This document shows positions 27,781 to 39,679 of a DNA stretch of 41,101 nt, in pieces. Under the pieces are notes generated by a model. That model was not told the origin of the DNA. It saw only the letters and a list, made by a program, of their open reading frames with translations, and ran no database searches. Each line of letters begins with the position of its first letter. Position 1 is the stretch's first letter. A program made the translations under genes and the position numbers. Source of the DNA: Candidatus Fermentibacteraceae bacterium (GTDB taxonomy: Bacteria > Fermentibacterota > Fermentibacteria > Fermentibacterales > JCC-6); NCBI GenBank assembly GCA_027067855.1, contig JAMOUX010000015.1, positions 1 to 41,101 of the forward strand. The letters are read 5' to 3'.

Positions 27781-29661
27781 CTACCCTTTCTTCCCGTATC
27801 TCTTGTTACCTCTCCTCACCGTCCATCCCAGGGCATCGAAAAGCTCCGCCCAGCGAAGAGCTTCCTTCCTGGAGCCTCCCAGAAAATCCCTGAGTTGAGC
27901 CAGTGCGAATCCGTCGTCGCCGAATTCCTTCCGAACCTCTTCCATAAGCCTTTCGGCGTACCCGGAAGTAACCACGAGGCCGTCCGCCATCTCCAGCAGC
28001 AACCCCCTTTCCACGAGGGCCCTCGCAAGGTTTTCGTCTTCCAGTTCCACCGCGGGGAAGCCGTCGCGTCCCATGGACTCAACGGTGGAAAGCATCTTAT
28101 TCACCCTGTCCCCGTACTCAGTCGGAATACCCGCAGGATGCCCGGCGGAGGCCAGCCAGTCGCCCCTTCTCTCCACCTTTCCGGTTTCCAGCAGTTCGTC
28201 AAGCATGTACCTGACCAGCCACTGGGGATACCCGTTCAGTATCCTGGCAGGCTCGGAGAGAGGAATCCCCGGACTCAACGGGTTTTTCGAATGGTGATGC
28301 GAAAGACTGTCGAGAAAAGCCTCCCGCGCGGCGTCCAACACCGCCCTTCCCACCGCCTTGACCGACGAGCCGGAACCCTTCAGGATCACCATCCCCTTTT
28401 CCGCCATATTCTCCAGCGCCGCAATCACGTCGTCCACGGACCTGGAAGTCCGCGAAGCCGCCTCCGACGCCGTAAGCCCCGATCTTCCCGCTTCTTCCAG
28501 CACCTTGTCCAGTATCGTCTCGAGGTCGCCTTTCTCCAGTACCTCCAGGTGTATTATCCTGTCATCAACGTATTTCTTACGCACCTTCCTGGTACCGGTC
28601 TCCAGTATCTTCCCTCCCCCTATGGTCACGATGGGCGAGTAGCTGCGGATCACGAACCTGTCCTCCGGTATCGCGGCCACCGGAGATTCCAACTGGAAAT
28701 GAACATAGCCCGTGGTACCCGGAGCGAGTACATCACCTTCCACCGGCACGGCCCTTGCCATGACCTCAGCGGTTCCCGTATGAAAGCGGACCCTTTGGTG
28801 CCTTTTAAGAGGAACAGCGGTAGGTACCATCGAAAGCTTGGTGTCGAGGCTGTTCCTCACCTTCATGTACCCGGGTTCGGCCACGCAGCAACCCCTGTAG
28901 ACGTCCTCTTTACGCAAGCCGACGAGATTGAGGGCCACCCTGTCGCCGGGAATGCCCAGGGGCACTCCCTTCCGTGCGTTCACCCGCATGTCCCGAACCC
29001 TGTATTTCCTGCCCCCGGGTTGAATCTCCACTTCCCGGCCCACCCGTATGGTGCCGGATATGACCGTACCGGCGACTATGGTTCCGAACCCCTCCAGGAC
29101 GAAGACCCTGTCTATGTCCAACCTGAAGGCTCCACCGGTCTTCCTCTCGCCCACCCCGGCGGCCATGTCCACTATGGCCTTCCTCAGCCGGTCCATTCCC
29201 TCACCCGTCAACGAAGACACCCTGAACACGGGAGTACCCTCGTAGGGGGTCTCCTTCAGGTAGTCCCTTATCTCCATCTCTACGAGTTCCTGCATCTCGT
29301 CGTCGACGAGGTCGCACTTGGTCATAGCCACCAGGCCCTTCTCGACCCCCAGCAACCTGACTATGTCCAGGTGCTCCCGGGTCTGGGGCATGATACCTTC
29401 GTCGGCGGCCACCACCATGAGGAAGCGGTCCACCGTGGCGGTGCCGGCGACCATCTGTCTCACAAAATTCTCATGCCCCGGAACATCTATGAAGCCCACG
29501 ATCCCCCCGCCGGGGATGGGCATGAACACGTACCCCAGTTCGATTGTTATTCCCCGTTCCCTCTCTTCCTTGAGCCTGTCGGGGTCTTCACCGGTGAGGT
29601 ACTGCACCAGCCGGCTCTTGCCGTGGTCTATGTGGCCCGCCGTACCTATGACTACGCCCAT
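27781..29661 (-). CDS. selB: Selenocysteine-specific elongation factor SelB
   Basis: EF-Tu-like GTPase that brings Sec-tRNA to UGA codons followed by a SECIS hairpin. 626 residues: G1 motif GHIDHGK (9-15), RERGITIELGYV, DVPGHENFVRQMV, TKCDLVD, domains 2 and 3 (to about 350), then winged-helix repeats at the C-terminus (for example GLTASEAASRTSRSVDDVIAAL and DDGFALAQLRDFL) that bind SECIS. It starts 10 bases inside selA. Confidence 0.96.
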   Translation of the reverse strand: MGVVIGTAGHIDHGKSRLVQYLTGEDPDRLKEERERGITIELGYVFMPIPGGGIVGFIDVPGHENFVRQMVAGTATVDRFLMVVAADEGIMPQTREHLDIVRLLGVEKGLVAMTKCDLVDDEMQELVEMEIRDYLKETPYEGTPVFRVSSLTGEGMDRLRKAIVDMAAGVGERKTGGAFRLDIDRVFVLEGFGTIVAGTVISGTIRVGREVEIQPGGRKYRVRDMRVNARKGVPLGIPGDRVALNLVGLRKEDVYRGCCVAEPGYMKVRNSLDTKLSMVPTAVPLKRHQRVRFHTGTAEVMARAVPVEGDVLAPGTTGYVHFQLESPVAAIPEDRFVIRSYSPIVTIGGGKILETGTRKVRKKYVDDRIIHLEVLEKGDLETILDKVLEEAGRSGLTASEAASRTSRSVDDVIAALENMAEKGMVILKGSGSSVKAVGRAVLDAAREAFLDSLSHHHSKNPLSPGIPLSEPARILNGYPQWLVRYMLDELLETGKVERRGDWLASAGHPAGIPTEYGDRVNKMLSTVESMGRDGFPAVELEDENLARALVERGLLLEMADGLVVTSGYAERLMEEVRKEFGDDGFALAQLRDFLGGSRKEALRWAELFDALGWTVRRGNKRYGKKG

Positions 29662-33358: not shown

Positions 33359-33993
33359 TCCACGCCTCCTTCCCGGACTTCACCGGAATCCGTGTCACCG
33401 GTTCCCCGGAACAGGCCGGCTTCCGCCATGGCCTGGAGGCCCTTGCGTACCGACACGGTAACGGCCCGGGAAGTTATGGTGCACCCGGTCATGGCGTCTA
33501 TATCGCCTCCGTCCTTCCTGAGCAGTATCTCGTCGGCGGACCTGCCGATGAATGCCGCGGTGAGTTTCGAGGGGTCCGTGACATTGGCGCCCAGGCCCGG
33601 AGTCTCCTGCTGATAAAGGATCTTGGTACCGGCCACGGTGCCTTCCGGGTCTACCGCCACCATGGTCTGTATGGTGCTGGAATATCCTTTTCCGTAAGCT
33701 ATGAAGATGTAACCGGCGACGGAGGTATCCGGCGGAACGGAAACCTTCACCACCCTGAGTTCCTCGTCCACGGAGGCATACGGGTTCTGCATGCCTTCCA
33801 CGACCAGCGAATCGAAACGCATGCTGTCCGCCTCCACCAGGCCCATGGCCACCAGTCTCATGGCATCCTGCTTCTCCTGTTCCTTCTGCAGGGCGATGAT
33901 GGGAGCGGTCTTGCCGTTGACTATCCCCAGGGCTACGGCGGCCACGACCGCCACCAGCATGAGGACCAGTCCCAGCCTGAATATCTCACCCAT
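33355..33993 (-). CDS. rnfG: Rnf complex FMN-binding subunit RnfG
   Basis: Extracytoplasmic flavoprotein with covalent FMN on a Thr. 212 residues: an N-terminal membrane helix (about 7-26), then the FMN domain. The flavinylation segment reads DAMTGCTITS, whereas the usual motif is (S/T)GAT; the acceptor Thr is kept but Ala is replaced by Cys. QQETPGLGANV is also typical. It starts inside the last codons of rnfD. Confidence 0.92.
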   Translation of the reverse strand: MGEIFRLGLVLMLVAVVAAVALGIVNGKTAPIIALQKEQEKQDAMRLVAMGLVEADSMRFDSLVVEGMQNPYASVDEELRVVKVSVPPDTSVAGYIFIAYGKGYSSTIQTMVAVDPEGTVAGTKILYQQETPGLGANVTDPSKLTAAFIGRSADEILLRKDGGDIDAMTGCTITSRAVTVSVRKGLQAMAEAGLFRGTGDTDSGEVREGGVE

Positions 33994-35113
33994 TCTTCTT
34001 CACCTCCCCGAAGAACTTCGGCCTGGTGAGCCGGTTTATCAGGGGAGTGGTAAGATTCATGAGCAATATGGAGTAGGAACAACCCTCGGGATAACCGCCC
34101 CACCTGCGTATGATCATGGTGATGAGGCCAGCGCCCAGCCCGAATATTATCCTGCCCCGGGGTGTTACCGGGGTCGTCACCATGTCGGAGACCATGAAGA
34201 TGCCTCCGAGGACCACTCCTCCCGAAAGAACGTGGAACAACGGATTACCGTCGAACCAGCCGCCGCCGCCGAACACCCATCCCAAAAGGGCCACGGTGCC
34301 GAGGTAACTGAGTGGCAGCCTCAGTTCCAGTACCTTTCTCAGCACCAGGTAGATCCCCCCGAGGAACAGCATCACTATCGAGGTTTCGCCCAGGCATCCG
34401 CCCCGTTTCCCGATCAGGAGATTCTTCAGCGTTCCGGCTCCGTACAGCGCCCGTCTCATCGACGCCGCCTTCAGACGCATCTCGTCCGCACCGGCGCGAT
34501 CTCCCTCCAGCTCCACCGCCCCGGCTCCCGAATCAAGGTCGAAGGACTGCTTGAGAACATTCAGGGGAGTGGCTCCCGATATGGCGTCGGCCCCGGGAAC
34601 TCCGGCCAGTTCCACCACGGGGATGCCGTGGGTATCGGAATACGTTCCGTCCCCGTCCCGGTTTACGGGAGCCGTCCAGCCCGCCGTCATAAGCACCGGG
34701 AAGCTGGCCATCAGAAACGCCCTTCCCAGCAGGGCCGGGTTCACGATGTTGTGGCCCAGGCCGCCGAAGGCCTGCTTGCCGACCACTATGGCGAACGCGG
34801 AGCCCACCACCGGAAGCCATACCGGCACCCCCGGCGGCAGGTTGAAGGCAAGGAGTATGCCGGTAACGACGGCGCTGCCGTCCAGGACGAAGGATACCGG
34901 CCTTTTCATGAATTTCAGGCTCAGGTACTCCGAAAGCACCGCCGCGGCAACACTGGCAACCACCAGGAGCAGCGCCCGGGGGCCGAAGAACCACACGGCG
35001 GCCGCCAGCGCCGGAAGAAGCGCCACGGCCACGTCGTACATTATCCTGCGGGTATCAAGGTTCGAGATCACGTGTGGTGATATCGCCAGCTCGAACCTCC
35101 TCGGTTCAGCCAT
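33986..35113 (-). CDS. rnfD: Rnf complex membrane subunit RnfD
   Basis: Membrane subunit with covalently bound FMN and a probable role in ion movement. 375 residues from the ATG at 35113, beginning MAEPRRFELAISPHV. About nine membrane helices; the flavinylation motif is DAISGATPLN, and GKQAFGGLGHNIVNPALLGRA and LFHVLSGGVVLGGIFMVSDM are conserved. AAGGAGG lies four bases before the ATG, whose last base is the first of the rnfC stop read (TGATG arrangement). Confidence 0.94.
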   Translation of the reverse strand: MAEPRRFELAISPHVISNLDTRRIMYDVAVALLPALAAAVWFFGPRALLLVVASVAAAVLSEYLSLKFMKRPVSFVLDGSAVVTGILLAFNLPPGVPVWLPVVGSAFAIVVGKQAFGGLGHNIVNPALLGRAFLMASFPVLMTAGWTAPVNRDGDGTYSDTHGIPVVELAGVPGADAISGATPLNVLKQSFDLDSGAGAVELEGDRAGADEMRLKAASMRRALYGAGTLKNLLIGKRGGCLGETSIVMLFLGGIYLVLRKVLELRLPLSYLGTVALLGWVFGGGGWFDGNPLFHVLSGGVVLGGIFMVSDMVTTPVTPRGRIIFGLGAGLITMIIRRWGGYPEGCSYSILLMNLTTPLINRLTRPKFFGEVKKNG

Positions 35114-36423
35114 CACGCCTCCTTTCCCATGCCGGCCCTGATCGCGTTCTGAGCCTTTTTTATGTAATGGACAAGATACCTGCCCGCCGGGCAGACGTAG
35201 CCGCATGTTCCGCATGCCATGCAGTTCAGGGCTCCGAATTCCTTCGCCATTTCCCACCTTCCGGCGGCCGCGGTCATGGCGATCATGTTGGGTGTCAGTT
35301 TAAGAGGACACGCGTCCACGCACTTTCCGCACCTGATGCAGGGCCCCTCCTCCGACGAACGCACCTCGCCGGAAGTCAGCGCCAGCACCCCGCTGGTGCT
35401 CTTGGTCACCGGCACCTTGTCGGTGAACAGCGACACGCCCATCATGGGCCCGCCGCTTATCAGCCTCCTGACGTCTTCCCCGTAACCCCCGGCCGCTTCC
35501 ACCAGCGCCGAGAACGGAGTACCCACGCAGACATCGTAGTTACCGGGGGAAACCACGCCCCTTCCCGTAACGGTGACGATCCTGCGCAGGGAAGGCATCC
35601 CATCCCTTACCGCCGCCGCCACGGCCGCGGCGGTTCCCACGTTATGCACCACCACCCCGACGTCCATGGGCAGGCCGCCGGGAGGCACCTTACGGCCGAC
35701 AGCCGCGTCTATCAGCTGCTTCTCGGCTCCCTGCGGGTACCTCACCTTGAGGGGAACCACCTTGCAGCCCCTGGAACGCATCGTCTCGATGGCGTCGGGT
35801 TTGTTCTCCTCTATGCCCGCCATGTATTCGGAAACTCCCAGCACGTGGGCCATTATCTTCATTCCCAGTATGATGTCGTCGGGATTTTCCAGCATCAGCC
35901 TGTGGTCCGCCGTAAGGTAGGGTTCGCACTCCACCCCGTTTATTATGAGAGTGTCCATCTTCTTGTCCGGCGGGGGCGAGAGCTTCACGTACGCGGGGAA
36001 ACCGGCTCCCCCCATGCCGCACACACCCGCGAGCCTTATTCTCTCGACCAGTTCCTCCGGAGAATGAGACGAATAGTCCTCCCACGGCTCGAAAACCCGT
36101 CCGCCCTCCTCGGACACGGTTTCGATGATCACGGCGGGTCCCGTCCGCCTGTGGGGCATGGGATAATCTTCCACGGCCTTCACGGTACCATTCACCGGGG
36201 CGTGGGTGGGCAGGCTTATGAATCCGTTCTGTTCGCCTATCTCCTGCCCCTTACGCACCTCGTCACCCCTGGAGACCACGGGTCTGGACGGGGCTCCAAG
36301 GTGCTGGCAAAGGGGTACGACAACGATCTCCGGGGCCGGAAACCTCTTTATGGGCTTCCCCGACGAGAGGTTCTTGTGCCCCGGAGGATGAGTACCTCCC
36401 CTGAAAGTCCTGGCTTTGCTCAT
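35113..36423 (-). CDS. rnfC: Rnf complex NADH-binding subunit RnfC
   Basis: Peripheral subunit where NAD is reduced or NADH oxidised. 436 residues from the ATG at 36423, starting MSKARTFRGGTHPPGHK. Family features: GVCGMGGAGFPAYVKL (nucleotide-binding loop), INGVECEPYLTADHRLM, and two [4Fe-4S] motifs (CIRCGKCVDACPLKLTP and CMACGTCGYVCPA) near the C-terminus. GAGGAGG lies just before the ATG. It begins the rnf genes, 61 bases after nrdR. Confidence 0.95.
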   Translation of the reverse strand: MSKARTFRGGTHPPGHKNLSSGKPIKRFPAPEIVVVPLCQHLGAPSRPVVSRGDEVRKGQEIGEQNGFISLPTHAPVNGTVKAVEDYPMPHRRTGPAVIIETVSEEGGRVFEPWEDYSSHSPEELVERIRLAGVCGMGGAGFPAYVKLSPPPDKKMDTLIINGVECEPYLTADHRLMLENPDDIILGMKIMAHVLGVSEYMAGIEENKPDAIETMRSRGCKVVPLKVRYPQGAEKQLIDAAVGRKVPPGGLPMDVGVVVHNVGTAAAVAAAVRDGMPSLRRIVTVTGRGVVSPGNYDVCVGTPFSALVEAAGGYGEDVRRLISGGPMMGVSLFTDKVPVTKSTSGVLALTSGEVRSSEEGPCIRCGKCVDACPLKLTPNMIAMTAAAGRWEMAKEFGALNCMACGTCGYVCPAGRYLVHYIKKAQNAIRAGMGKEA

Positions 36424-36484
36424 GCGCCTCCTCGGTTGTTGCGTGCGGGAGCCGATCTCCCCGCAGCAGTCATGAAACGCCACT

Positions 36485-36934
36485 TTACTTCAGGAGCCTG
36501 TCCAGCTCCTCCTTGAACTGTGAAACATCCTTGAATTTCCTGTATACGCTGGCGAACCTGACGTACGCCACCTGGTCCACCTCCTGAAGCAGTTCCATAA
36601 CGCACTCGCCGATGAACTTGACGGACACTTCCTCCGGGAATTTCTCGGTTATCCTGGATATCACCCCGTCCACCAGTTCCATAACGTCCTCCGCGGAAAC
36701 CGGCCTTTTCTCGCAGGCCCTGCTTATGCCCTTCTCCAGCTTGCCCCTGTCGAAGGGCTCACGCCGTCCGTCGTTCTTGACGACCACGGGAAACGACTTC
36801 TCGATATACTCGTATGTCGTGAAACGGTACCCGCACTCGTTGCATTCGCGCCGTCTCCTGGTAGCCTCGCCGTCACGCACCATGCGCGAGTCTATGACCC
36901 TATCGTTCATATTGGAACAACGGGGGCACTTCAT
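36485..36934 (-). CDS. nrdR: Transcriptional repressor NrdR
   Basis: Zinc-ribbon/ATP-cone repressor of ribonucleotide reductase genes. 149 residues from the ATG at 36934, with C3-P-R-C6 and C31-N-E-C34 forming the zinc site, then the ATP-cone (VVKNDGRREPFDRGKLEKGI) and VAYVRFASVYRKFKD. GGAG lies seven bases upstream. It leads the rnf genes but no nrd genes are in the window, so linkage to rnf is positional only. Confidence 0.96.
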   Translation of the reverse strand: MKCPRCSNMNDRVIDSRMVRDGEATRRRRECNECGYRFTTYEYIEKSFPVVVKNDGRREPFDRGKLEKGISRACEKRPVSAEDVMELVDGVISRITEKFPEEVSVKFIGECVMELLQEVDQVAYVRFASVYRKFKDVSQFKEELDRLLK

Positions 36935-37047
36935 CAGTACGCTCCAACTTCCAGGGTTCGGAACCACGCCGCTTCTCCCGCGGCCGGTACCGCCACGATA
37001 CCTTCACGGCAACACGGTACGGGTACGCGGAATAATAGTAAATATCC

Positions 37048-37090: not shown

Positions 37091-37167
37091 GGTGGGAGTA
37101 GTTCAGTTGGTAGAGCCCCTGACTGTGGATCAGGTGGTCGCCGGTTCAAGTCCGGTCTCCCACCCCA
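37091..37167 (+). tRNA. tRNA-His (GTG)
   Basis: Cloverleaf with acceptor GTGGGAG/CTCCCAC, the extra 5' G(-1) opposite C73 that marks tRNA-His, anticodon loop CTGTGGA with anticodon GTG, T-arm GGTTCAAGTCC and encoded CCA. Confidence 0.96.
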
Positions 37168-37172
37168 TCAAT

Positions 37173-37248
37173 GCGTCCCTAGCTCAATTGGCAGAGCAAC
37201 GGACTCTTAATCCGTAGGTTCCGGGTTCGATTCCCGGGGGGCGTACCA
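37173..37248 (+). tRNA. tRNA-Lys (CTT)
   Basis: Acceptor GCGTCCC/GGGGCGT (two G-U pairs), anticodon stem ACGGA/TCCGT with loop CTCTTAA, anticodon CTT, T-arm CCGGGTTCGATTCCCGG, encoded CCA. Starts five bases after tRNA-His. Confidence 0.95.
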
Positions 37249-37252
37249 TCCG

Positions 37253-37285
37253 GTTCCGCGGGGTCAGGCACCCCGCGGAACTTTT
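37253..37285 (+). terminator. Intrinsic terminator between tRNA-Lys and tRNA-Arg
   Basis: Perfect 11-base stem GTTCCGCGGGG (37253-37263) and CCCCGCGGAAC (37271-37281), seven-base loop, then TTTT. It directly follows the CCA of tRNA-Lys and lies upstream of tRNA-Arg. Confidence 0.85.
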
Positions 37286-37289
37286 GAAT

Positions 37290-37366
37290 GCGCCCGTAGC
37301 TCAGCCGGATAGAGCAGCGGACTTCTAATCCGCAGGTCACAGGTTCGAATCCTGTCGGGCGTACCA
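37290..37366 (+). tRNA. tRNA-Arg (TCT)
   Basis: Acceptor GCGCCCG/CGGGCGT, D-arm GCTC..GAGC, anticodon stem GCGGA/TCCGC with loop CTTCTAA, anticodon TCT, T-arm CAGGTTCGAATCCTG, encoded CCA. It starts five bases after the terminator. Confidence 0.95.
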
Positions 37367-37369
37367 GTC

Positions 37370-37393
37370 AAGGGGGGCGCATGCCCCCCTTTT
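37370..37393 (+). terminator. Intrinsic terminator after tRNA-Arg
   Basis: Stem AAGGGGGGC (37370-37378), loop GCAT, GCCCCCCTT (37383-37391), then TT. It also separates the tRNA cluster from the convergent secreted-protein operon. Confidence 0.75.
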
Positions 37394-38220
37394 CATCTTG
37401 CGACAGTGAAAAGAAAACGACACGACGAGTTTTCATCGTCGTGAAGCATCATGACGTAAACCCCGGAGGGCAGCCGTGATACGTCGATTCCGCCGTCACC
37501 TCCCCGGAGTTCCCCCTCCAGCAGCAACCTGCCGTTCACGGAGTATACCCGGAAGTTCCAGGGTTTCCATACCGTCACGTCCAGCACGTCGACAGCCGGG
37601 TTGGGACCGAATTCCACTCCTCCCGGCGCGAATCCACCCGCATCCTTCCAGTTGACGGCGACCACAGCGTCCAGGTCGAAGAGCCCTCCGTCCTTGACCG
37701 CTTCGCCGCAATCGGTGAGACGGACATAGGCTATCCACGGCAGGCCCACCCGGGACAGGTCGAAACCGTCTCCACCGGAAACCTCCGGGTTCGTGGGATC
37801 CTTGCCGGTGGTGGGCCGGACCCCGGCGAGCCCCTCCAGGGTCTCCGGGTCCCACGGGAACATGGTCCAGTTCTCGCCGTCGGCGCTCACTTCCACGAAG
37901 GCGCACTCCCTGAAATATCCCGAACCGGTCCGCATGACGTTCTCGAACACGGAGAAGTCCACTCCGGGGCCGTCCACCACCACGTTGTCCGCGAACTCCA
38001 GGACTATCCACCCTTCGGCGCCCAGGGTGAGCAGTTCCGTTTCCGAGCAGGAGGGAACCGTGGCAGTGGCCCCCGGGTCAGGGGGGCCAAGCACATTATC
38101 TGGGTAGTAATCCTGCCCGAATCCCGCTCCTTCTCCGTACCACACCGCCGGTGAAGCGTCCGCCCACGGGTCGGACGCGGCCACGGCAACGAGATACGGC
38201 AGGAAAAGCGCAATCGTCAC
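37393..38220 (-). CDS. Secreted protein with C-terminal sorting-like domain, second gene of the riboswitch operon
   Basis: 275 residues. A signal peptide is evident (TIALFLPYLVAVAASDPWA, cut near residue 15-16). The main domain (about 17-190) has the pattern IVLEFADNVVVDGPGVDFSVFEN, then FVEVSADGENWTMFPWD, seen in secreted proteins of unknown function; I cannot name the family. The last 70 residues (NPAVDVL..., then VYSVNGRLLLEGEL and ISRLPSGVYVMML-like VSRLPSGVYVMML) match the layout of type IX-secretion-type A sorting tails. The GTG start lies five bases after the propeller gene, so the two form an operon under the cobalamin riboswitch. A role in cobalamin capture is inference from that context. 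Confidence 0.75.
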   Translation of the reverse strand: MTIALFLPYLVAVAASDPWADASPAVWYGEGAGFGQDYYPDNVLGPPDPGATATVPSCSETELLTLGAEGWIVLEFADNVVVDGPGVDFSVFENVMRTGSGYFRECAFVEVSADGENWTMFPWDPETLEGLAGVRPTTGKDPTNPEVSGGDGFDLSRVGLPWIAYVRLTDCGEAVKDGGLFDLDAVVAVNWKDAGGFAPGGVEFGPNPAVDVLDVTVWKPWNFRVYSVNGRLLLEGELRGGDGGIDVSRLPSGVYVMMLHDDENSSCRFLFTVAR

Positions 38221-38225
38221 GGGGG

Positions 38226-39413
38226 TTACCTCACTACCGAGAACCTCGCCGCCGTACCGCCCGATACGGCCGTGTAAACGCCGCGGGGCAGGCCGGAAAC
38301 GGAGAACACGGCTTCACCCTCGCCGTCCGCCCGCGCCGTTCCCACGCACCTGCCGGAAATCTCGTAGAACGCGACACTCGCGAAGGGTTCGAGCCCGGAC
38401 ACGTTCACCCGCGCCACCGCGGGGCAGGGAGACAGCGTCAACGAACCAGGGACGGGAACCACGCCCTCCCTTTCAATGCCGTTGGTCTCCACCACCACCA
38501 GCGCGCCTGGATTGCTGACGGAATACGTAGCCAGGAGCTTGTCTTCCTCGTCGTAAATCCTGACCTGTCCGGCCTTGGAGTCGGACACGTAAAGGTTGCC
38601 GGACAAATCCAGAGCGAAACCGGTTCCACCGGTGAACACCGGGTCAGACTGGGAATGAAGCACCTGGTGGGTTTTGGTATCCACCACGTAAACTCCGGCA
38701 CCCCATCCGTCTCCGATATAAGCCTTGTTTCCCCTGATACAGATTATGGAAGGGAAACCTCCCAGGAAAAGCGTGTCGGTCACGGTACCCGTGGCCGGGT
38801 CGACCACGCTGACAGAGCCCTCGTCGTTACCGTACACGCCGCTGTTCACCACGAACAGTTCCCCGTCCTCCCAGTCGCAGGCCACCGACTGGCAGTTCGT
38901 CCCGACCTCGATGGTGTCGGCGCTCGAGTAAGTACATGCGACCAGGTTGTTATCCTTGCCCCATCCGCCGCACGCCACGAACAGGCACTCGGGCCCCAGG
39001 CACATCCACTCCGGGTTCGGGCCGATTCCTTCCGCTTCCGTAACGATGGACATGGAAGACGTGGCCACCGCCACCAGGGAATTGTGCAGGGCCGCGCTCA
39101 CGACCAGCGTGTCCTCGGCGACGAAAAGGCCCGCCCAGCAGTTGTATCCGGTGCCTATGGCCAGGTTCCGGATCTCGAAGGTAGCGGCGTCTATCTTTTG
39201 AAGCGCCTTGTCGTCACTTCCCGAGTTGATCACGTAGAGATATCCCCCACTGTAAAGTATGTCGTTGGGATACTTGCCCAGCTGAGCCACCTCCGGGTTT
39301 ACCGTACCCGTTTCCAGGTCTATCTCCGCCAGTTTGCCGTTGGTATCGATGACAAATACCTTGTCCGCCGCACAAACGGCCGCCAGTAGAAAAATCAACA
39401 GGATGAATCTCAT
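38226..39413 (-). CDS. Secreted beta-propeller protein, BtuG/YncE-like, under a cobalamin riboswitch
   Basis: 395 residues from the ATG at 39413, chosen because GGGAGG lies six bases upstream and a signal peptide (MRFILLIFLLAAVCAADK) starts there. Residues about 20-310 consist of repeated beta-propeller blades such as VFVIDTNGKLAEIDLETG, LYVINSGSDDKALQKID, LFVVNSGVYGNDEGSVSVVD and LYVSDSKAGQVRIYD. The C-terminal 75 residues (SPCPAVARVNVSG..., VAFYEISGRCVG, VSGLPRGVYTAV) resemble a sorting tail. In Bacteroides the surface propeller BtuG binds cobalamin with extreme affinity and is made from riboswitch-controlled btu operons. This gene has the same fold type and the same regulation, so a vitamin B12-binding role is a strong hypothesis, not proven. 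No btuB or btuFCD is in the window. Confidence 0.72.
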   Translation of the reverse strand: MRFILLIFLLAAVCAADKVFVIDTNGKLAEIDLETGTVNPEVAQLGKYPNDILYSGGYLYVINSGSDDKALQKIDAATFEIRNLAIGTGYNCWAGLFVAEDTLVVSAALHNSLVAVATSSMSIVTEAEGIGPNPEWMCLGPECLFVACGGWGKDNNLVACTYSSADTIEVGTNCQSVACDWEDGELFVVNSGVYGNDEGSVSVVDPATGTVTDTLFLGGFPSIICIRGNKAYIGDGWGAGVYVVDTKTHQVLHSQSDPVFTGGTGFALDLSGNLYVSDSKAGQVRIYDEEDKLLATYSVSNPGALVVVETNGIEREGVVPVPGSLTLSPCPAVARVNVSGLEPFASVAFYEISGRCVGTARADGEGEAVFSVSGLPRGVYTAVSGGTAARFSVVR

Positions 39414-39495
39414 TTCCATCCTCCCATGTGTTGCCACGCTCGGAGCGGAAAAAACACCGTGTTTTCTCCACCCTCCCGCGAAGGTGAAAAAACAG

Positions 39496-39645
39496 CAATC
39501 GGCAGAAGGCCTTCTGACTTCCGGGCTACCTAATCCCGAGCCTTCTCGCCTTTTATAAATAAGCAATGGCCTGTTCGGTTTCGTTCCCGGTTACAGCGGC
39601 GGGGCCGTGCCGGATTCTCACCGGCTTTCCTGACGCTGCCGACCG
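39496..39645 (-). promoter_or_regulatory. Cobalamin riboswitch
   Basis: On the minus strand the conserved core is clear: GCCGGTGAGAATCCGGCACGG, written here as GGTGAGAATCCGGCACGG (39625-39608 region), then CCCGCCGCTGTAACC (B12-box region), and GTCAGAAGGCC near the 3' end. The ends CGGTCGGCAG (39645-39636) and CTGCCGATTG (39505-39496) pair over ten positions, forming P1 (two G-U). A T6 tract (39492-39487) follows P1 after CTG, so control may be by transcription termination. The next gene starts 82 bases downstream. Confidence 0.9.
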
Positions 39646-39652
39646 TGTTACG

Positions 39653-39679
39653 ATACTACACAGCCGTGACCGGATACAA
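39653..39679 (-). promoter_or_regulatory. Candidate promoter of the riboswitch operon
   Basis: On the minus strand: TTGTAT (39679-39674), 15-base spacer, TAGTAT (39658-39653). Transcription would start almost exactly at the riboswitch 5' end (39645). The spacer is short, so confidence is limited. Confidence 0.35.

Follow-up and report, generated by a model that had tools for sequence, protein, structure and literature searches.

Which function does a vitamin B12-sensing riboswitch serve when it is followed by genes of two secreted proteins and by no transporter? The question is raised by a 41,101-nucleotide contig of a Candidatus Fermentibacteraceae bacterium (assembly GCA_027067855.1, contig JAMOUX010000015.1, positions 1 to 41,101; hereafter the window), where a cobalamin riboswitch, a 73-nt leader, the gene of a seven-bladed β-propeller and, 5 nt further, that of a 275-residue protein (p275) follow each other in the order of transcription on the minus strand between 37393 and 39655. 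Judged from profile alignments, p275 is a remote relative of BtuH, a domain that binds B12, and the operon quite probably encodes a B12-starvation-induced accessory capture pair that feeds a BtuB-type receptor encoded elsewhere, the binding, location and hand-over being the inferred parts of this proposal. The operon comprises the following features.

39487 to 39655, minus strand: cobalamin riboswitch aptamer (RF00174), full-length match of 88.1 bits, E 1.4e-20 (cmscan)
39414 to 39486, minus strand: riboswitch expression platform or leader, conserved in nine relatives (folding)
39400 to 39425, minus strand: hairpin over the Shine-Dalgarno sequence and start codon, GGAGGAUGGAAAUGAGAUUCAUCC, a six-pair helix in nine relatives
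38226 to 39413, minus strand: secreted seven-bladed BtuG-like β-propeller, 395 residues, with a C-terminal immunoglobulin (Ig)-like tail of the type IX secretion system (T9SS) kind (AlphaFold2 (AF2), Foldseek, profiles)
37393 to 38220, minus strand: p275, 275 residues, a secreted BtuH-like domain (approximately residues 16–195) and a T9SS type A tail (AF2, Foldseek, hhalign, PF18962)

The riboswitch had been described as well formed in an earlier sequence-only reading, and the match indeed far exceeds the gathering score of 31.5 and covers model positions 1–189 completely. Only two cobalamin riboswitches are present in the whole 1.86-Mb genome, therefore chance does not explain why one of them lies 73 nt ahead of an ATG. 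Both open reading frames (ORFs) of the two-gene operon are likewise confirmed. The propeller frame runs from the ATG at 39413 to 38226, and while in-frame TTG starts exist upstream, the ATG is backed by a GGAGG and a Sec signal; the p275 frame opens with a GTG at 38220, ends at 37393 and carries the VDGPGVDFSVFEN motif as originally written. The ORFs next to the operon showed neither a TonB receptor nor an ATP-binding cassette (ABC) transporter, also as previously stated.

The p275 domain has no Pfam family. Apart from the sorting tail, single-sequence searches of Pfam and the PDB returned nothing but ribosomal-protein noise, and a 12-sequence profile (A1) only pectin lyase noise, thus the homology to BtuH is invisible without deeper profiles. 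With a profile of the domain, the BtuH2 structure with B12 (7biz) was the sole PDB sequence at E ≤ 10, with an E-value of 0.19 over the hallmark motif. When the p275 family was aligned in hhalign with BtuH domains from Bacteroidia genomes, picked by their similarity to 8blw_B (E 1e-113) and 7biz (E 1e-95), a score of 56.8 was obtained (P 7e-8), compared with at most 24.8 for 60 column shuffles, 17.4 for the reversed profile and at most 16 for DUF4465 and the propeller. The AF2 model of p275 (predicted local distance difference test (pLDDT) score of 91) retrieved 8blw_B, which is BtuG1 with its BtuH domain, at rank 3 and with a probability of 1.0 among 350,542 chains in Foldseek, below a T9SS tail domain, a match owed to the tail of p275; taken alone this match is weak, since the template modelling (TM) scores are low (0.37/0.18). 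Membership in BtuJ (DUF4465) was tested and rejected, as p275 has no PF14717 match and the hhalign P is 0.2.

The alignment also offers a candidate ligand residue. Asn399 of BtuH2, which contacts the B12 phosphate (PMC8941943), aligns with N94 in the VFEN of p275, and N94, D88 and E105 are invariant in 64 members of the family. The PAPGQF and QGNAF segments of 7biz hold the BtuH2 contact residues Gln333, Asn399 and Phe401 (PMC8941943) once the chain index is raised by 100, in which case the three letters and their spacings fit. The position of Phe401 is occupied by M96 in p275 and by a phenylalanine in many family members, and Gln333 may correspond to Q35, given a one-residue shift.

A connection to cobalamin is likewise apparent across the family. 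A public-genome scan with the single p275 protein gave no match, whereas an alignment query found relatives in at least 385 places; furthermore, of 99 genomes searched, 37 gave matches at E ≤ 0.001, some of them covering only the tail. In total 106 p275 loci, which are related to one another, were examined, the 80 from the public-genome scan being the best-scoring of the at least 385 places, and 70 of the 106 were scanned with Rfam. A cobalamin riboswitch is located upstream on the same strand in 54 of these 70, and because in five of the 16 without one the sequence stops within approximately 1 kb of the gene on its upstream side, the fair figure is 54 of 65. As a background, 36 Fermentibacteraceae genomes of about 3 Mb contain 44 above-cut-off cobalamin riboswitches, or about one to two per genome, and fewer than 0.01 would be expected within 6 kb upstream of a random gene. 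The p275 homologues are therefore mostly found with cobalamin riboswitches, the opposite of what the sequence-only reading had named as a refuting outcome. The riboswitch-linked lineages number at least ten at the phylum level, namely the Fermentibacterota, KSB1, Zixibacteria, Gemmatimonadota, Myxococcota, Planctomycetota, Sumerlaeota, Binatia, Chlorobiota/Ignavibacteria-Bacteroidota and WOR-3.

The neighbours of the p275 genes point in the same direction. A TonB-receptor hidden Markov model (HMM) matches near 51 of the 106 genes and a propeller HMM near or within 76. In ten loci, of the KSB1, Zixibacteria and Gemmatimonadota among others, the p275 domain is fused to a propeller (L057, L078, L079, L080, L083, L084, L086, L089 and L090, plus one locus cut by a contig end). 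Wherever these loci extend far enough upstream, a riboswitch and a TonB receptor directly precede the propeller-p275 protein, in that order. In the Bacteroidia operons L181–L184 a TonB receptor is followed by DUF4465 (BtuJ), a p275 family member and a BtuG-like lipoprotein propeller; the labels 'BtuJ FUSED' were disregarded, as they were caused by the sorting tail shared with that HMM. The B. thetaiotaomicron BtuG1 is itself a natural fusion of a propeller and BtuH (PMC8941943), both halves of which bind cobalamin on their own (PMC12751083). The proposal of the sequence-only reading that p275 could be a new cobalamin-binding partner was a good guess, since the family is cobalamin-linked and remotely homologous to BtuH; the regulation and the kinship stand, and the binding itself is a prediction. 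In two related Fermentibacterota genomes (L048, 6161–6615, and L053, 5100–5517) divergent, back-to-back cobalamin riboswitches were observed, one of which serves p275 and the other faces away, in L053 toward a broken-up propeller frame.

Cobalamin riboswitches in other bacteria also control cobalt uptake and B12-independent isozymes, and both jelly-roll-like and propeller folds bind many ligands, so that the pair might be controlled by B12 and yet handle something other than a corrinoid, such as cobalt or a substitute for a B12-dependent function. This appears improbable, as neither p275 nor the propeller is an enzyme or a metal transporter according to the family search, and the family-wide co-occurrence of p275 with TonB receptors, BtuJ and BtuG-like propellers, together with the homology to BtuH, speaks for corrinoid capture instead.

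The propeller resembles BtuG in both fold and sequence. The AF2 model (pLDDT 90.5) consists of 28 strands that form seven blades of four, followed by the Ig-like tail. In a Foldseek search of the PDB an archaeal propeller ranked first, and BtuG1, BtuG2, BtuG3 and the BtuG orthologue 3dsm were found at ranks 2–17, with TM-scores normalised to the target mostly at 0.72–0.77. The single sequence gave a weak BtuG signal (E 0.017), a profile of the Fermentibacterota orthologues alone had BtuG chains as its best PDB matches (E 2e-9), and after addition of other riboswitch-linked propellers BtuG was the best whole-length PDB match (E 5e-28), ranking ahead of YncE and hydrazine synthase beta over the whole propeller. 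By these profiles the propeller is closer in sequence to BtuG than to other propellers, which together with the riboswitch supports the earlier claim that a BtuG-like propeller is controlled by cobalamin in a phylum other than that of Bacteroides. The mature propeller has a net charge of −25, resembling the −18 of BtuG2 (PMC10404256), and the charge per residue of p275 is the lowest but one among the listed ORFs of the source genome, although the argument from charge is weak because other secreted proteins of the genome are acidic too. When the BtuG2 pocket was compared using the residue numbering of PMC10404256 and the BtuG chain alignments of the profile searches, the aromatic character was found to be retained at Trp272 (F220) and Tyr239 (Y194).

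Both proteins carry Sec signals, and sorting-type tails had been attributed to both. The tail of p275 is above the cut-offs of PF18962 (Por_Secre_tail; 28.1 versus 27 bits) and TIGR04183 (27.4 versus 23), whereas that of the propeller falls just below the latter (21.2 versus 23). The 12 C25-peptidase matches in the source genome fit a T9SS-like system, and from their signals and tails the two proteins are probably located on, or shed from, the cell surface.

Several observations weigh against a capture pair of the BtuG–BtuH kind. The hhalign alignment of p275 with BtuH is limited to approximately the first 100 residues, and no counterparts of the corrin-ring contacts Tyr510, Trp511, Trp577 and His476 of BtuH2 were found in it, the corrin-contact region being either absent from p275 or unalignable. 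Eleven of the 65 p275 loci with enough upstream sequence have no riboswitch, and five of the eleven have no receptor or propeller match either. Neither p275 nor the propeller is a lipoprotein, unlike BtuG and BtuH; the N-terminus of the propeller, MRFILLIFLLAAVCAADKV, contains no proper lipobox, and its cysteine is absent in the orthologues. SprA has only a weak, sub-cut-off match in the source genome, so that T9SS export is a tentative assignment. Finally, Trp194 and Tyr335 of BtuG2 have no counterpart in the propeller and Tyr316 is replaced by a phenylalanine or methionine, so that the comparison with BtuG suggested in the sequence-only reading is borne out for the fold and only partly for the ligand face.

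It might therefore be asked if p275 alone binds the corrinoid, with the propeller acting as a scaffold or a receptor lid that docks to a BtuB-like receptor or to p275, its BtuG pocket lost or never present. The incomplete pocket, shared with the KSB1 propellers, would agree with such a division of labour: some pocket residues vary among the Bacteroidota BtuGs as well, but those proteins retain Tyr316 and Tyr335. Propellers are, besides, a common scaffold fold, and the invariant asparagine of the phosphate site belongs to p275. On the other hand, the conserved aromatic residues of the propeller's own family, W93, W136, W151, Y194 and W237, could build a different pocket, and its acidity is like that of BtuG2. 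A p275-only binder thus appears a doubtful, if reasonable, alternative to a pair in which both proteins capture the ligand.

The destination of the captured cofactor is suggested by the rest of the genome, which consists of 44 contigs and is 98.9% complete. The host belongs to the Fermentibacterota, genus Aegiribacteria, and its close relatives are titled Candidatus Aegiribacteria or Fermentibacteria, in line with the phylum difference surmised earlier. The second cobalamin riboswitch, on contig C7, precedes a 650-residue TonB receptor (L003:13304–15256) and a 333-residue lipoprotein propeller (L003:12298–13299). The receptor has the Pfam TonB barrel and plug, and its best NCBIfam model is TIGR01779 (vitamin B12 receptor), far under the cut-off of that model. 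If the genome has a true BtuBG pair, this operon (L003:12298–15256) is the likelier one to encode it, and its propeller is the better candidate for BtuG. Three adjacent genes on contig C44 have models of the BtuC type, the BtuD or corrinoid-ATPase type and the BtuF type as their best matches or among the best. In family searches, on which the genome-level absences rest, no CobS and a single TP_methylase were found, along with ten B12-binding domains. Corrin synthesis de novo requires several TP_methylases, therefore the organism probably scavenges cobamides and does not make corrins, and the scavenged cobamides would serve the ten B12-binding domains.

The sequence-only reading had taken the missing receptor as a sign of a separate or pared-down system. 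In its strongest form this would be self-sufficient capture without any TonB receptor, for example by a secreted B12 sponge, which would suit the tails and the lack of an adjoining receptor, as well as the sister genus, where the riboswitch of the p275 operon is the only above-cut-off cobalamin riboswitch in most genomes with the operon. Such a system appears very improbable here, since the same genome encodes the riboswitch-controlled BtuB-like receptor, the lipoprotein propeller and the BtuFCD-like genes, and since the receptor is part of the same operon as p275 in other phyla. The presence of these genes argues that the propeller-p275 operon is instead an accessory to an uptake system whose genes are spread over several loci, and the idea of a pared-down one is abandoned.

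Control by the riboswitch is probably translational, as far as can be judged from folding and conservation. The leader is conserved in nine relatives and can form alternative hairpins. One hairpin lies around UUUUUUCACC-UUCGCGGGAGG-GUGGAGAAAA, with a 5′ arm that overlaps the end of the aptamer match by a few bases, and it can pair alternatively with the downstream GUGUUUUUUCC, as inferred. The conserved hairpin that covers the Shine-Dalgarno sequence and the start codon favours translational control; 96% of the cells of its helix are paired across the nine relatives, and three of its pairs are altered on both sides, in one cell each. A terminator-type mechanism was rejected, as the consensus scan revealed no convincing terminator 3′ of the aptamer, which again favours the Shine-Dalgarno hairpin.

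In the accessory-capture model, a low intracellular cobamide level would leave the riboswitch unbound and allow the two-gene mRNA to be translated, probably through release of the Shine-Dalgarno hairpin. Both proteins would then exit the cytoplasm by their Sec signals and be placed on, or shed from, the surface by means of the T9SS-type tails. Outside the cell, the propeller and p275, both acidic and resembling BtuG and BtuH respectively, would bind and concentrate corrinoids, p275 presumably holding the phosphate of the nucleotide loop with the asparagine of VFEN, and the cofactor might be passed to the products of the other riboswitch operon, the BtuB-like receptor and its lipoprotein propeller, and from there to BtuFCD.

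The operon is flanked on one side by three tRNA genes on the opposite strand (37092–37366), and one further feature lies within its end.

37421 to 37443, minus strand: terminator-like hairpin that overlaps the 3′ end of the p275 gene (consensus scan only)

On the other side, approximately 100 bp from the riboswitch, a CRISPR (clustered regularly interspaced short palindromic repeats) array extends from about 39760 to the contig end (39760–41101) with some 20 GCTTCAATGGAGCCGCGATCCTAAGACCGCGGAAAC repeats visible; no cas genes were recognised among the ORFs examined. Elsewhere on the minus strand, 33986–36483 and 36485–36967 encode, as judged by translations only, look-alikes of RnfD/RnfC-type electron transport subunits and then an NrdR-like regulator, and an ORF at 27781–29661 has a SelB-like N-terminus (selenocysteine elongation factor), which hints at possible selenocysteine use by the host.

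The study of BtuH concerned gut Bacteroidetes (PMC8941943), and BtuG homologues were reported from Bacteroidetes only, with the BlastP parameters of the authors (PMC6143338); a search of the available papers found no description of either outside that group. DUF4465/BtuJ was recently established as a B12 binder with a multi-phylum distribution (PMC13398666), and p275 would add a further family of this kind, unnamed save for a sub-threshold connection to Leptospira. The sole curated family that touches the p275 domain is NF033170, the Leptospira LIC_13355 lipoprotein, which is matched by all 64 of 64 members (best E 2e-13). A paper on the binding activities of LIC_13355 mentions neither vitamin B12 nor cobalamin (PMC11891782). 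The locus tags of the L. borgpetersenii LIC_13355 gene (LBJ_RS15535) and of a dimethylbenzimidazole phosphoribosyltransferase (LBJ_RS15545), a cobamide gene, are close to each other, and both genes occur in one list of regulated genes (PMC8055020). The lipoprotein, studied for other binding activities, may be a corrinoid binder.

It is plausible, though proposed here with modest confidence, that p275 represents an unrecognised family, present in at least ten phyla, of compact domains that bind corrinoids outside the cell; the BtuH of gut Bacteroides would be a derived branch of this family and the LIC_13355 lipoproteins would be members, and together with BtuG-like propellers it would form, sometimes by fusion, a capture module that predates the Bacteroidetes systems and is more widespread. 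The Pfam-less family gains a testable ligand, along with a candidate residue to bind it. If the proposal is true, a function would be assigned to hundreds of 'cell surface' proteins (the at least 385 relatives), a further small B12-binding scaffold would be added to BtuJ, and competition of surface binders for extracellular B12 would extend far beyond the gut.

Compared with the known systems, p275 resembles the LIC_13355 family in the NF033170 match, its own score of 21.5 bits being far under the cut-off of 120. With BtuJ (PF14717) it shares the nature of a secreted β protein from riboswitch-controlled B12 operons, the spread over many phyla and the frequent T9SS tail (PMC13398666, PMC12751083), but the two stand as separate adjoining genes in Bacteroidota. 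The propeller has in common with the B. thetaiotaomicron BtuG1, BtuG2 and BtuG3 (PDB 8ptd, 8bmy, 8okv and 3dsm) the seven blades, the strong acidity and the cobalamin-riboswitch operon, and these proteins are its best whole-length PDB matches; it differs in the T9SS-type tail, in the missing lipobox, in an identity of only about 17–20% across the propeller and in the lack of btuB in its operon. p275 is remotely homologous to BtuH (BT_1956, PDB 7biz, and the C-terminal part of BtuG1, 8blw_B), with which it shares the LSLG-GG-I-x-F...DFxVxxN core, the invariant asparagine at the place of Asn399 and the pairing or fusion with a propeller (PMC8941943). The p275 domain is smaller, approximately 180 residues compared with 270, has neither PKD domains nor a lipobox, and its family occurs far outside the gut Bacteroidetes, so that the propeller-plus-BtuH logic of the latter is now seen across many uncultured phyla.

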